A stretch of 64,000 nucleotides of DNA, taken from contig JAOTZC010000003.1 of the NCBI GenBank assembly GCA_029861535.1, forward strand, positions 1 through 64,000, given 5' to 3'. The position numbers and the translations under genes were made by a program. Positions 3,635 through 39,226 of this stretch are shown piece after piece. Source of the stretch: Gammaproteobacteria bacterium (GTDB lineage: Bacteria; Pseudomonadota; Gammaproteobacteria; Steroidobacterales; Woeseiaceae). The stretch's first letter is position 1. Each line of letters starts with the position of its first letter. The notes under the pieces were generated by a model. The model worked only from the letters and a program-made list of their open reading frames with translations. It did no database searches and had not been told where the DNA came from.

Positions 3635-3907
3635 ATGCCACGCAGTGTAAGAAAAGGGCCGTTCGTCGACACACATTTGGCGAAAAAAGTTGCCGAGGCA
3701 GCCGCAAAGAATGATCGCCGACCGATCAAGACTTGGTCGCGCCGCTCGATGGTACTGCCCGACATGGTTGGGCTGACTATTGCCGTGCACAACGGTCGTC
3801 AGCATGTGCCGGTATTGATTTCCGAAAACATGGTCGGTCACAAACTTGGCGAGTTTGCGCAGACCCGTACCTTCCGCGGTCACTCCGGTGATCGCAAGAC
3901 TAAGTAA
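3635..3907 (+). CDS. rpsS: 30S ribosomal protein S19
   Basis: S19 binds 16S rRNA in the head with S13. The 90-aa protein begins [18 protein letters not shown] and ends [19 protein letters not shown], both typical. It is 72 nt after rplB, a slightly long gap without an obvious terminator. A GGAAGG stands upstream with relaxed spacing. Confidence 0.97.
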
Positions 3908-34534: not shown

Positions 34535-37500
34535 ATGTCATCGACTTTCAGGCTAGTGCTTTTTTCACTGTTGCTTTCAACCACAACAGCGTATTCCGCT
34601 GACGTATATATCCCCAGTGAGCTGCAGGGCTGGGAAGCCTGGGTACTTGAAGGCAAGGAGTATCGTGACTGCCCGTTCTACTTCAATCGTGGCAGCAGCG
34701 ACCGAGGCGACTACGTTTGTGCGTGGCCAAGTACCTTGGACCTCAGTGTCGATGAAAACGGTGGCCGTTTTACGCAACAGTGGACCGTTACGGCGGAAGA
34801 CGCGTGGCTGCCGCTACCGGGAAATACGGCCTATTGGCCTGATCAGGTCACGGCCAACGGCTCGCCGGTGGCCGTCGTTGAACATGATGGTATGCCCAGC
34901 GTTCGAGTTCAGCCGGGCAGATATCGATTGAACGGCCGTTTCGAGTGGGACGATCGCCCCGGCGTATTGCGCGTACCGCCGCAAAGCGGCCTGGTGGCGC
35001 TAACCGTCAATGGCCAGCGCATCGCCAAACCTGAAATTGATCGAAATGGCGTTTTTCTAGGCGAGCGTAAACGTGAAACGCAGGCGCGCGATGCGGTAAG
35101 CGTACAGGTTTACCGGCTAGTTTTGGACGATGTGCCGACGCGGCTCGTTACGCAAGTGCAGATCGATATCTCTGGAAGCGTCCGTGAGGAATTGTTCGGT
35201 CCGATATTGCCGGACGGCTTTGTGCCGTTATCCATTCAGAGCGCACTGCCTGCCCGGCTTGAGGCAGACGGCCAGCTGCGTGTGCAAGTCCGACCCGGTC
35301 GCTGGGAGGTGTCGCTGACAGCGCGCGCTCCTGAAGTGTTGAACTCGATAACACTGCCTGAAGCAGAGACTAATCTACCGGATACGGAAATTTGGAGTTA
35401 TCGTGCCAACGATCGACTGCGAGTGACTGCCGCCGAAGGACTGCCACCGGTCGATCCGTTGCGAGTTCAAGTCCCGGGTGGCTGGTCCGAGCTGCCGGCG
35501 TTTCGCATTGCCCGAGGAGAATCTCTCGAGATTACAGAGCGCAGTCGCGGCATGGCCGCGGCAGACAACGACCTCGGTCTAGGGCGCAAAATGTGGCTCG
35601 ACTTTGGTGGCGGCGGCTTCGTCGTGCAAGACAAAATTAGTGGCACGATGCGAGCCGACTGGCGACTCGACATGCAGCTGCCGTTTGCGCTGAAGAGCGC
35701 AACCGAGGGCGACGAAAATCTTCTAATCACTACCGGCGATGAGGAAGGTCAGACCGGCATCGAGATTCGTGAGGCGGATCTCGATGTGCTCGCACTCGGT
35801 CGCAGCGAGACGCGCGCGTCAATGCCTGTTACCGGCTGGGATGCACGCTTTGTCGACGTAGATACCGTTCTATATCTTCCACCGGGGCACAAATTGCTGG
35901 CCGCGCCGGGCGTGGACGCTGCGGACGGCAGCTGGGTTGGTCAGTGGGAATTGCTCGATTTTTTTCTGGTTCTAATCATTACGATCGCTGCATGGAAACT
36001 GTTTGGCCGCACATCCGGCATTATCGCGCTATTGGCTCTGACGCTGAGCTATCACGAAATCAATGCGCCGGCATGGCTGTGGCTGAACCTGTTGGTCGCC
36101 ATTGCGCTGCTGCGCGTGGCGCCGGCCGGCAAACTGCTCAATGCCGTGCGTGGGTATCTCGGGCTTAGCACATTGCTGCTCGTTTTTGCGCTAGTACCGT
36201 TTGTCGCCGGCCAGCTGCGCGTTGCAATCTATCCGCAGCTCGAACCGCAATGGAATCTGTGGCAATACGGTCGTACTTATAATGGTGGACTTGCGCCGAC
36301 GACGCTAAGTGTCGAAGAGGATGTGCCGGCGCGGGCACGACTCGCGGAGAAGGAAGCCATGTTTGCGACGGATCGCGTGGAATCCCTTGAAGAGATCATG
36401 GTGACAGGAGCTCAAATCGCGTCAACGAACTTCGCGCGTTATGCGCCGAATGCAATCGTTCAGGCGGGCCCGGGGATTCCGTCTTGGCAATGGAATGCCT
36501 ATCGATTGACGTGGAGCGGTCCCGTCGACGCCGAGCAGACTATGCGGCTGGTGGTTCTATCGCGCTGGGCCGTAACCCTGTTGCGATTTGTCGAGGTGCT
36601 GTTGTTGTTGTTGTTTACGGCGGTGCTCGCTGCCGAAGTCATTAAGAAGCGTTGGACGCTGCCGGGCGGGCTAAACATCGGTCGCAGTGCGACGACATGT
36701 CTGTTAACCGGCCTCATCGCGGTGTCGATGTTGGGAATTCCGGAGGCCAGGGCCGAACTACCGGATCGCGACCTTCTGAACGAACTCCAAAACCGCTTGC
36801 TGCAGCCACCGGACTGCGTGCCGCGCTGCGCGGAGATCGTCGCCGCCGATGTCGACATCGGAGAGTCTACGGTCAGCATGCGGCTGACGATCAATGCGCT
36901 CGAAGAAGTCGCGATCCCGCTGCCAGGCTCGCTTCGCGGCTGGCGGCCGGACGCGGTTGTTGTCGAAGGCTCGTCGTCGGCGCAAGTGTTGCGGGGTGCA
37001 AATCAGAATCTTTGGCTACGAGTACCCATTGGCCGCCATGTCGTTTCGATCAGCGGCAGCGCGGCGGTCGCTGACAGCCTGGAAATCGCTTTTCCGACAC
37101 CGCCGCGTGTCATTGAAGCGAGCGGTGATGGCTGGTTTATCGCTGGTATAAAAGATCGACGATTGTTATCTGGCTCGCTTCAGCTGACACGGCTGCAGAC
37201 GGATGAGGGCGGCGACGGTGCACCGCGATGGGAAAGCAGTCGTTTTCCGCCGTTTGTACACGTCAGCCGTACTGTCGAACTCGGTCTCGACTGGCGCGTG
37301 ACGACGACGGTGCAACGAATCGCGCCGATGCAAGGCGCGCTAACGCTGCAGCTGCCATTGATCGAAGGCGAGACCGTGCTGACAGACGATATGACGGTCG
37401 ACGACGGCAAGATTCTTGTATCGATGAATCCCACGCAGCGCACGGCGAGCTGGCAATCAAATCTGCCGCGAACATCGCCACTCGTTCTTTCCAGCGCCGC

Positions 37501-38617
37501 AGGCGCGCCGTGGAAAGATACCTGGTACGTCGGTGTCGGTTCAGTATGGCACGCGGAATTCAGCGGTGTTCCCGAGAGCGAGTCAGGCAATCAGGGCGCC
37601 AGCGTGCGCATGGCTGAGTTCCATCCGCGCGGCGGCGAATCGTTGCAGATCATTGCGAGCCGGCCCGAAGCTGCCGAAGGCTCAACGTTGGCGTTCGACT
37701 CCGTCGATGTCAGCATCGAACAGGGTGCGCGGTCTCGGAACACGACGCTGTCGCTAAGTTATCGAAGTACCCGGGGTGCCCAGCATATTATCCGGCTCCC
37801 GGAAGGTGCTGAAGTCACGGATGTATCGATCGATGGCAACCACGAACCATTGCGCGCGGAAAACGGTGAACTAACGCTGCCGATTCTGCCGGGCAAACAC
37901 GCTATCGAAATCAAATGGCGTGAAGACGGAAATGTCTCCTGGGTGTCTAGGACAGCAACGATTGATGTCGGCGCGGCGTCGAGCAATATATCGTCGAATC
38001 TTAGCCTGCCGGAGAATCGTTGGCTGTTAGCGACAAGCGGTCCAAGGCTTGGTCCGGCGGTCTTGTATTGGTCCGAGCTTGCCGTATTGATCATGCTCGC
38101 GCTGATTCTGGGGCGTGTTGACTGGACGCCACTGAAAACACATCACTGGCTCCTGCTCGGTGTCGGTTTCAGCACATTTAGCTGGCCCGTGCTCGGCTTT
38201 GTTGCGGTCTGGATTCTCGCCGTTGGCGCACGCGACAAGTGGCGCTTCGACGGCCCATGGTGGCGCTATAATTTGGCGCAGGTGGGAATCGTCTTGCTGA
38301 CCGTCGTTGCGTTGGTATCCATCGTTTCCAGCCTACCGATGGGACTATTGGGGACGCCGGACATGCATGTAACCGGCAACGATTCTTTCGGCAATTACCT
38401 GTCGTGGTTCGCCGACCGTAGCGAATCGACAATTCCAGTTGCTAAGGCGATGTCCGTGCCGATGTGGATCTACAAAGGTCTGATACTGGGCTGGGCATTG
38501 TGGCTGAGCTTCGCTTTGTTAAAGTGGTTACCTTGGACATGGCAGTGTTTCGCGCGCGACGGATTTTTTCGCTCGCGAAAAAGCGACCAAACGGACACAT
38601 CGACTAGCGAGGCGTGA
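34535..38617 (+). CDS. 1360-aa polytopic membrane protein of unknown function
   Basis: I do not recognise a family. The protein starts with a signal peptide (FRLVLFSLLLSTTTAYSA), then a beta-rich extracytoplasmic region to about residue 470. Four hydrophobic helices follow (about 474-567, e.g. LLDFFLVLIITIAAW and GLSTLLLVFALVPFVAGQL). A loop at 568-670 holds LEEIMVTGAQIAS (about residues 618-630), like the EEI(V)VTG TonB-box region of TonB-dependent receptors. Two helices, the second ending IPEARA like a signal cleavage site, lead to another beta-rich region (about 740-1165) and four C-terminal helices. GGAGGG precedes the ATG. The stop directly adjoins the next GTG. Such architecture suggests an envelope scaffold or transporter-like role, but that is speculation. 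Confidence 0.8.
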   Translation: MSSTFRLVLFSLLLSTTTAYSADVYIPSELQGWEAWVLEGKEYRDCPFYFNRGSSDRGDYVCAWPSTLDLSVDENGGRFTQQWTVTAEDAWLPLPGNTAYWPDQVTANGSPVAVVEHDGMPSVRVQPGRYRLNGRFEWDDRPGVLRVPPQSGLVALTVNGQRIAKPEIDRNGVFLGERKRETQARDAVSVQVYRLVLDDVPTRLVTQVQIDISGSVREELFGPILPDGFVPLSIQSALPARLEADGQLRVQVRPGRWEVSLTARAPEVLNSITLPEAETNLPDTEIWSYRANDRLRVTAAEGLPPVDPLRVQVPGGWSELPAFRIARGESLEITERSRGMAAADNDLGLGRKMWLDFGGGGFVVQDKISGTMRADWRLDMQLPFALKSATEGDENLLITTGDEEGQTGIEIREADLDVLALGRSETRASMPVTGWDARFVDVDTVLYLPPGHKLLAAPGVDAADGSWVGQWELLDFFLVLIITIAAWKLFGRTSGIIALLALTLSYHEINAPAWLWLNLLVAIALLRVAPAGKLLNAVRGYLGLSTLLLVFALVPFVAGQLRVAIYPQLEPQWNLWQYGRTYNGGLAPTTLSVEEDVPARARLAEKEAMFATDRVESLEEIMVTGAQIASTNFARYAPNAIVQAGPGIPSWQWNAYRLTWSGPVDAEQTMRLVVLSRWAVTLLRFVEVLLLLLFTAVLAAEVIKKRWTLPGGLNIGRSATTCLLTGLIAVSMLGIPEARAELPDRDLLNELQNRLLQPPDCVPRCAEIVAADVDIGESTVSMRLTINALEEVAIPLPGSLRGWRPDAVVVEGSSSAQVLRGANQNLWLRVPIGRHVVSISGSAAVADSLEIAFPTPPRVIEASGDGWFIAGIKDRRLLSGSLQLTRLQTDEGGDGAPRWESSRFPPFVHVSRTVELGLDWRVTTTVQRIAPMQGALTLQLPLIEGETVLTDDMTVDDGKILVSMNPTQRTASWQSNLPRTSPLVLSSAAGAPWKDTWYVGVGSVWHAEFSGVPESESGNQGASVRMAEFHPRGGESLQIIASRPEAAEGSTLAFDSVDVSIEQGARSRNTTLSLSYRSTRGAQHIIRLPEGAEVTDVSIDGNHEPLRAENGELTLPILPGKHAIEIKWREDGNVSWVSRTATIDVGAASSNISSNLSLPENRWLLATSGPRLGPAVLYWSELAVLIMLALILGRVDWTPLKTHHWLLLGVGFSTFSWPVLGFVAVWILAVGARDKWRFDGPWWRYNLAQVGIVLLTVVALVSIVSSLPMGLLGTPDMHVTGNDSFGNYLSWFADRSESTIPVAKAMSVPMWIYKGLILGWALWLSFALLKWLPWTWQCFARDGFFRSRKSDQTDTSTSEA

Positions 38618-39226
38618 GTGAGTTATTGGCGAGTTAGCTGGGTAATTATTTTCATCGCGGTGTTGGTCTGGTCGGGCATCAATCCGAAGGACACGACGAC
38701 CTGGGTTCTCGAGGTGCTACCCGCGCTCATTGCCATCGTCATCCTGTTTTGGACTCGCGAGCGCTTCCCGCTAACGACGCTGACTTACACATTAATTCTG
38801 ATCCACTGCATTATCCTAATGGTTGGCGGCCACTATACCTATGCCGAAGTGCCGATCGGCGACTATGTCGGCGAGTTGCTTGGACATAGTCGAAATAACT
38901 ACGACAAGCTTGGCCATGTTGCGCAGGGCTTCATTCCAGCAATTGTCACCCGCGAAATCGTCATTCGGCTCGGCGTCTTTCGATCGCAGGCTTGGATGAG
39001 CTTTTTCGTTGTCGCGATGTGTCTTGGTATCAGTGCCTTTTATGAACTGATCGAGTGGTGGGTTGCATTGCTTTCGGAAGAAGCTGCGGACGCGTTTCTC
39101 GGCACGCAAGGCTATGTGTGGGATACCCAATCGGATATGGGTTGGGCGCTGTTCGGTGCAGTTATGGCGCTTATCACGCTGAGTGCAGTTCATGACAAGC
39201 AACTGCGCAGTAAATTGCGACAATGA
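38618..39226 (+). CDS. DUF2238 (YjdF-type) membrane protein
   Basis: The 202-aa protein has about six helices. The conserved segment YDKLGHVAQGFIPAIVTREI with FYELIEWW and the late QGYVWDTQSDMGWALFGA are the YjdF/DUF2238 hallmarks. It starts with GTG immediately after the stop of the 1360-aa protein, with no gap, so the two are probably co-translated. Function is not known. Confidence 0.85.
   Translation: MSYWRVSWVIIFIAVLVWSGINPKDTTTWVLEVLPALIAIVILFWTRERFPLTTLTYTLILIHCIILMVGGHYTYAEVPIGDYVGELLGHSRNNYDKLGHVAQGFIPAIVTREIVIRLGVFRSQAWMSFFVVAMCLGISAFYELIEWWVALLSEEAADAFLGTQGYVWDTQSDMGWALFGAVMALITLSAVHDKQLRSKLRQ

Follow-up and report, generated by a model that had tools for sequence, protein, structure and literature searches.

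A receptor-type TonB box in a periplasmic loop of an uncharacterised inner-membrane protein: a candidate TonB-docking site

TonB acts on outer-membrane receptors and on the colicins that use them, and we know of no reader of the receptor box peptide other than the TonB C-terminal domain. The boxes are read by beta-addition, and TonB-dependent colicins carry a TonB box in a disordered segment that makes the same contact; for the receptor FoxA, TonB has been reported to read part of the stretch upstream of the box (PMC11658791). The literature searched, which did not extend to most subscription journals, held no account of a resident inner-membrane protein with a TonB box.

Here we analyze a protein of 1360 residues encoded in a window of 64,000 nucleotides (the whole stretch of DNA that was analyzed) from a Woeseiaceae bacterium. 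A sequence-only reading of this DNA had pointed to an EEIMVTG-type motif in a periplasmic loop of an unknown membrane protein and had proposed a contact with TonB or ExbD. We compared the loop with the receptors of the same genome, followed the motif over the family of the protein, and considered what might read it.

An internally duplicated inner-membrane protein

The open reading frame is intact, with 1360 uninterrupted codons (Table 1) and a purine-rich stretch (GGAGGGACAG) immediately 5' of its ATG. In line with the earlier statement that the protein belongs to no named family, neither single-sequence nor profile searches of Pfam, NCBIfam, PADLOC, and PDB sequences gave a match; in particular, there was no match to the anti-phage defence profiles of PADLOC, and Pfam, including the Plug domain PF07715, gave none for the protein or for 25 homologues. 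The Pfam search also showed that the TonB_C (PF03544), ExbB, and ExbD domains are absent from the protein. With neither a Plug domain nor a 22-strand barrel, the protein lacks these marks of a TonB-dependent receptor, and with no TonB_C it lacks that of the energy transducer TonB. Pfam and PDB-sequence searches, with the single sequence and with profiles, gave no match that would place it in the sequence family of OST1/ribophorin I.

Homologues occur in 32 of the 60 near-related genomes, in 41 of 276 genomes of a class-wide sample, and in 16 of 299 genomes of a phylum-wide sample that included other classes, and a scan of GTDB genomes placed relatives in Woeseiaceae, Colwellia, Shewanella, Aliiglaciecola, Chiayiivirga, Haliea, Solidesulfovibrio, and others. 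We gathered 104 distinct full-length homologues, the most distant having about 32% identity to the window protein; the family is uncharacterised and belongs mainly to Gammaproteobacteria, with some members beyond. In homologue L028 (at about 3821–3834) and on contig 212 of genome G263 (at about 2490–2508), the two halves are split over two overlapping frames; these breaks lie at nearly equal positions, equivalent to residues 766–779, and may be due to an assembly error, a frameshift, or a gene break.

AlphaFold models were run separately on residues 1–715 and 700–1360 (mean pLDDT 87 each). In these models, each half has a periplasmic beta region (about 400 residues), after which come four helices, a segment in the periplasm, and one further helix. 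An hhalign comparison shows the two halves to be paralogous (probability 98.2%, E = 3.5e-14), and the protein is thus an internal duplication. The cysteine pair opening each half (46/62 and 761/765) is almost invariant and probably forms a disulphide. Overall, the models contain beta sandwiches and about 11 membrane helices, and no 22-strand outer-membrane barrel. The order of segments proposed by the sequence-only reading is borne out by the half models and the charge pattern. The count here is five helices per half, the last of which follows the loop.

Over the 104 homologues, the content of lysine plus arginine per 10 residues is mostly 1.8–2.3 in the segments assigned to the cytoplasm (1.0 in one segment of five residues) and 0–0.9 in those assigned to the periplasm. 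Combined with the helix count and the presence of a signal peptide, this charge pattern puts the loop 566–676 in the periplasm. Thus, by the positive-inside rule, the motif-bearing loop is predicted to face the periplasm, as first proposed, and a cytoplasmic topology was not found. The loop varies in length and sequence and has the lowest conservation in the protein (0.46 versus a mean of 0.64). In the second half, the loop at the equivalent position (residues 1273–1309, about 38351–38461) is short, periplasmic, and strongly conserved, with the consensus GLLGTPDMHV.G..SYGN.L.WFADRS, and may be a functional site of the core protein.

Table 1. Features of the gene and of the encoded protein, in window coordinates
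Feature	Position	Strand	Basis
Whole gene, duplicated inner-membrane/periplasmic protein of 1360 aa	34535..38617	+	ORF, 104 homologues, no named family
N-terminal signal peptide, residues 1–21	34535..34597	+	Hydrophobic helix 3–15 in model; evident in sequence
First periplasmic beta region, residues ~23–465, invariant Cys46/Cys62	34601..35929	+	N-half model, Foldseek, Cys conservation
Helices 1–4, residues 473–565	35951..36229	+	Model, positive-inside pattern
Periplasmic loop, residues 566–676	36230..36562	+	Between helices 4 and 5; 581–632 predicted disordered
TonB-box-like motif LEEIMVTG, residues 618–625	36386..36409	+	Pattern scan, PSSMs, homologues, topology
Helix 5, residues 677–703	36563..36643	+	Model
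Helix 6, residues 718–732, returns second half to periplasm	36686..36730	+	C-half model
Second periplasmic beta region, residues ~761–1170, starts with Cys761/Cys765	36815..38044	+	hhalign, model, Foldseek, Cys conservation
Helices 7–11, residues 1178–1340	38066..38554	+	Model, positive-inside pattern

The loop motif and the receptors of the same genome

The EEIMVTG-type motif is real and has the form LEEIMVTG. The degenerate pattern EE-[IVM]-x-VT-[GA] has 10 DNA matches in the window's genome, against 0 in the reversed control. Nine ORFs contain it in frame, namely the 1360-residue protein and eight receptors, whose N-termini have it immediately after the signal peptide. A PSSM built solely from the receptor N-termini of this genome gives the loop motif 20.0 bits, the next best being 10.1, among 59,113 12-mers in the open frames of the window; against shuffles of its own loop, LEEIMVTG has p = 0.002, the floor of the test. 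Judged by the receptor PSSM and by a pLDDT below 50 over residues 581–632, the protein carries a TonB box in a flexible periplasmic segment.

When each loop was scored against its own shuffles with a PSSM pooled from receptors of several genomes (p <= 0.01), a significant motif was found in 51 of the 104 homologue loops, mostly at the floor of the test, and in 46 of these 51 the motif ends 10–15 residues before the conserved end of the loop. In the 40 motif-bearing loops of the EE type, the entropy of the motif columns is mostly 0.2–1.3 bits, with 2.0 at the variable x and about 3 in the flanks, a contrast that is exaggerated because the rows were picked by motif score; the codon argument, with all four valine codons used in the motif, is independent of that choice. 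Short A-x-A-like stretches (PVMADD, PAMAED, and AMFATD) lie just before the motif in several loops, those of L093, L029, and the window; they resemble a signal-peptidase site followed by a receptor mature N-terminus, possibly by coincidence.

Receptor N-termini taken from several genomes were compared with the loops. In Woeseiaceae, both receptors and loops have LEEIVVTA/G; in Colwellia and Shewanella, the receptors have VERIEVTGSRIK or VERIQVTGSRIK and the loops VEQIEVTGSKIKKAD (Cognaticolwellia mytili) or VERVQVSGSRIKQVD (Shewanella); in Chiayiivirga, the receptors have LDRIEVTGSRIKRVD and the loop LDRVEVTGSRIQRVD. The sequence of the loop motif varies with the host and agrees in dialect with the receptors of that host. 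When matrices were scored across genomes, the own genome was best or near best for most loops, the Alteromonadales matrices being partly interchangeable, and when the seven testable loops were compared by BLAST with 62 receptors pooled from nine genomes, five had their best match in the own genome. The closest case is the L029 loop (genome G057, of the same order), where EDVAEQGLIEVTGSRI is identical in all 16 of 16 residues to the receptor L301 of that genome, and 11 of the 16 codons differ; thus it is not a recent DNA copy, and the peptide is under selection. The sister loop in L028 reads VAEQGLIEVTGSMI.

The L029 loop also holds EVESRSLAAVITREDIDKSGVLSEADV, similar to the plug start of receptor L301 (56% over 27 residues). 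This piece precedes the box and does not follow it, so that the loop resembles two swapped pieces of a receptor N-terminus; the likeness to the plug start is a short BLAST alignment only, the Pfam Plug model giving no match in this loop. Neutral capture of receptor DNA in a tolerant loop, with no function, would account for a second receptor-like piece in swapped order and for a loop that tolerates any sequence and length. However, the codons of the L029 and L301 peptides have diverged (11 of 16) with the peptide retained, the entropy drops in the motif only, the motif is retained over deep branches of its clade, and the codon data already point toward a dN/dS well below 1 over the motif, which makes functionless capture very improbable.

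The similarity between loops and receptors (16–30 residues) is longer than a TonB box requires, and in Colwellia and Chiayiivirga the likeness to the receptor N-terminus spans 20–30 residues. Likeness of this length leaves room for a second, receptor-handling reader. The loop could mimic the receptor N-terminus for a periplasmic factor acting on receptors just after their export, whether a chaperone, a protease, or an assembly factor, and the platform could then aid receptor biogenesis, with the loop as a pseudo-substrate. Both the identity over EDVAEQGLIEVTGSRI in L029 and the long matches of Colwellia and Chiayiivirga extend beyond the box, and the plug-start-like EVESRSLAAVITREDIDKSGVLSEADV fits it as well. 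However, TonB is the sole known reader of the peptide, and the gene showed no linkage to genes for BAM, chaperones, or receptors. TonB may itself read part of the upstream stretch, as for FoxA (PMC11658791), and on balance we consider a reader other than TonB rather unlikely.

Pfam matches in the window's genome number 20 for Plug and 5 for TonB_C; the reader and the receptors are thus both present in it. A TonB_C match in this genome (L296, C32:15059–15286) lies within an open frame of 1011 codons, which is unusual for a TonB protein. Since the TonB C-terminal domain is the only known reader and both partners are encoded, we read the loop as a candidate TonB-docking (TonB-box) site on an inner-membrane platform, and consider this assignment probable. 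The agreement of the motif with its own genome's receptors makes the contact with TonB, as proposed by the sequence-only reading, the best, although predicted, explanation, and takes the idea well past a chance resemblance; the contact with ExbD found no support.

Distribution of the motif and gene neighborhood

The family tree was built without the loop columns and by a quick method, and its fine branching is therefore uncertain. All motif carriers fall in one clade (51 of its 71 rows, support 100), and none are among the 33 homologues outside it. Within the clade, the motif is present in 10 of 10 Alteromonadales, 40 of 55 Woeseiaceae, and one of six Lysobacterales/Haliea rows; parsimony on its presence gives 13 changes, which indicates repeated losses or gains. 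The motif was thus added within a single clade and is not a feature of the whole family. Conservation in homologues, named by the sequence-only reading as support for a role, was found for most members of this clade, the motif being absent or degraded in 20 of the 71, and not family-wide.

Twelve genomes of clade members that lack a loop motif were examined; each has one or more matches to the receptor-type pattern, most of them several to dozens (frame unchecked), and a strict coupling of loop motif and receptor box is rejected on these grounds. Among ten genomes with a motif-less loop, eight have zero or one EE-type box and two have dozens (frame unchecked). With 20 of the 71 clade members lacking a significant motif in the presence of receptor-type boxes, the motif is dispensable or replaceable, and its absence from the rest of the family means that the core job of the protein is not Ton-dependent.

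This distribution bears on the possibility that the motif strand docks in cis on the protein's own beta region as an internal switch, its receptor likeness being convergence on a generic beta-strand. Two points favor it: beta-addition is a generic mode of binding, and exposed beta regions are numerous in the protein. However, the 33 homologues outside the clade have the same beta regions but lack the motif, the loop is predicted to be disordered, and it would be left unexplained why the loop, also in residues flanking the box, matches receptors of its own genome; docking in cis is thus improbable. The easy gain and loss observed in the clade would agree with a TonB sink, where the box merely competes with receptors for limited TonB and throttles uptake, a function for which a tethered box suffices. 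This is a specific form of TonB docking and not a separate mechanism, and in this particular form we give it little credence.

Gene neighbors are kept only within Woeseiaceae, with genes for ABC-F, DUF2238, alpha/beta hydrolase, and UvrA nearby; outside this family, the genes around the homologues are unrelated. Around the gene and its homologues, the neighborhood gave no link to the Ton system, to BAM, to chaperones, or to receptors, and it pointed to no function. The gene of the DUF2238 membrane protein (window positions 38618–39226) has its GTG start right after the stop codon of the 1360-codon gene, and the two are probably co-transcribed in Woeseiaceae; the arrangement is not kept elsewhere. 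In Haliea (L098 and L099), a large gene for an MscK-type mechanosensitive channel stops about 1 base short of where the homologue's called frame begins, which suggests an operon in Haliea only.

Proposed role and relation to known systems

In the proposed mechanism, the platform would be an inner-membrane protein with two paralogous periplasmic beta regions, and the long disordered periplasmic loop between its helices would display the N-terminal docking peptide of the host's receptors. The TonB C-terminal domain would add the loop box as a strand to its sheet. Least certain is what follows: TonB would most likely be held near the platform or pull on it, and the proton-motive force would thereby be coupled to whatever the beta regions bind; at the platform, TonB might be parked, shared out, or pulling. 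More tentatively, the protein may stand for a second class of Ton clients, in which a machine of the inner membrane recruits TonB-ExbBD via a receptor-type box in a periplasmic loop, so that the proton-motive force would work on or switch the platform and not only outer-membrane receptors; we regard this as possible rather than likely.

That the loop peptide is kept matched to the receptors of the same bacterium suggests that the Ton system may have an undescribed inner-membrane partner. If this is true, a protein of the inner membrane in which the docking peptide of the genome's own receptors is retained would be a new Ton client or regulator, with a bearing on the way in which dozens of receptors share a small number of TonB copies. 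It would give the uncharacterised family its first testable function, and the matched dialects of loops and receptors would be a natural data set on the residues that TonB reads around the box.

Compared with the described systems, the loop shares with TonB-dependent receptors the peptide (up to 16 of 16 residues identical), the host dialect, and the compartment; however, the receptor box is at the mature N-terminus of an outer-membrane protein, whereas here it is in an internal loop of an inner-membrane protein with neither plug nor barrel. TonB-dependent colicins and pyocins (e.g., colicin M) are likewise non-receptor proteins with the box in a disordered segment (PMC11658791), but they are exported toxins that use the TonB of the target, whereas the 1360-residue protein is a resident, chromosomally encoded membrane protein. 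TonB, ExbB, and ExbD are possible partners in the same membrane, and their domains are missing from the protein. Finally, the beta regions of both halves have a fold like that of OST1/ribophorin I and of the N-domains of M1 aminopeptidase/LTA4 hydrolase (Foldseek probability 1.00, E down to 1e-10); with whole-chain TM-scores of 0.1–0.3 and identity of 7–13%, this is a likeness of fold only, and the protein has no protease domain and a different membrane part.
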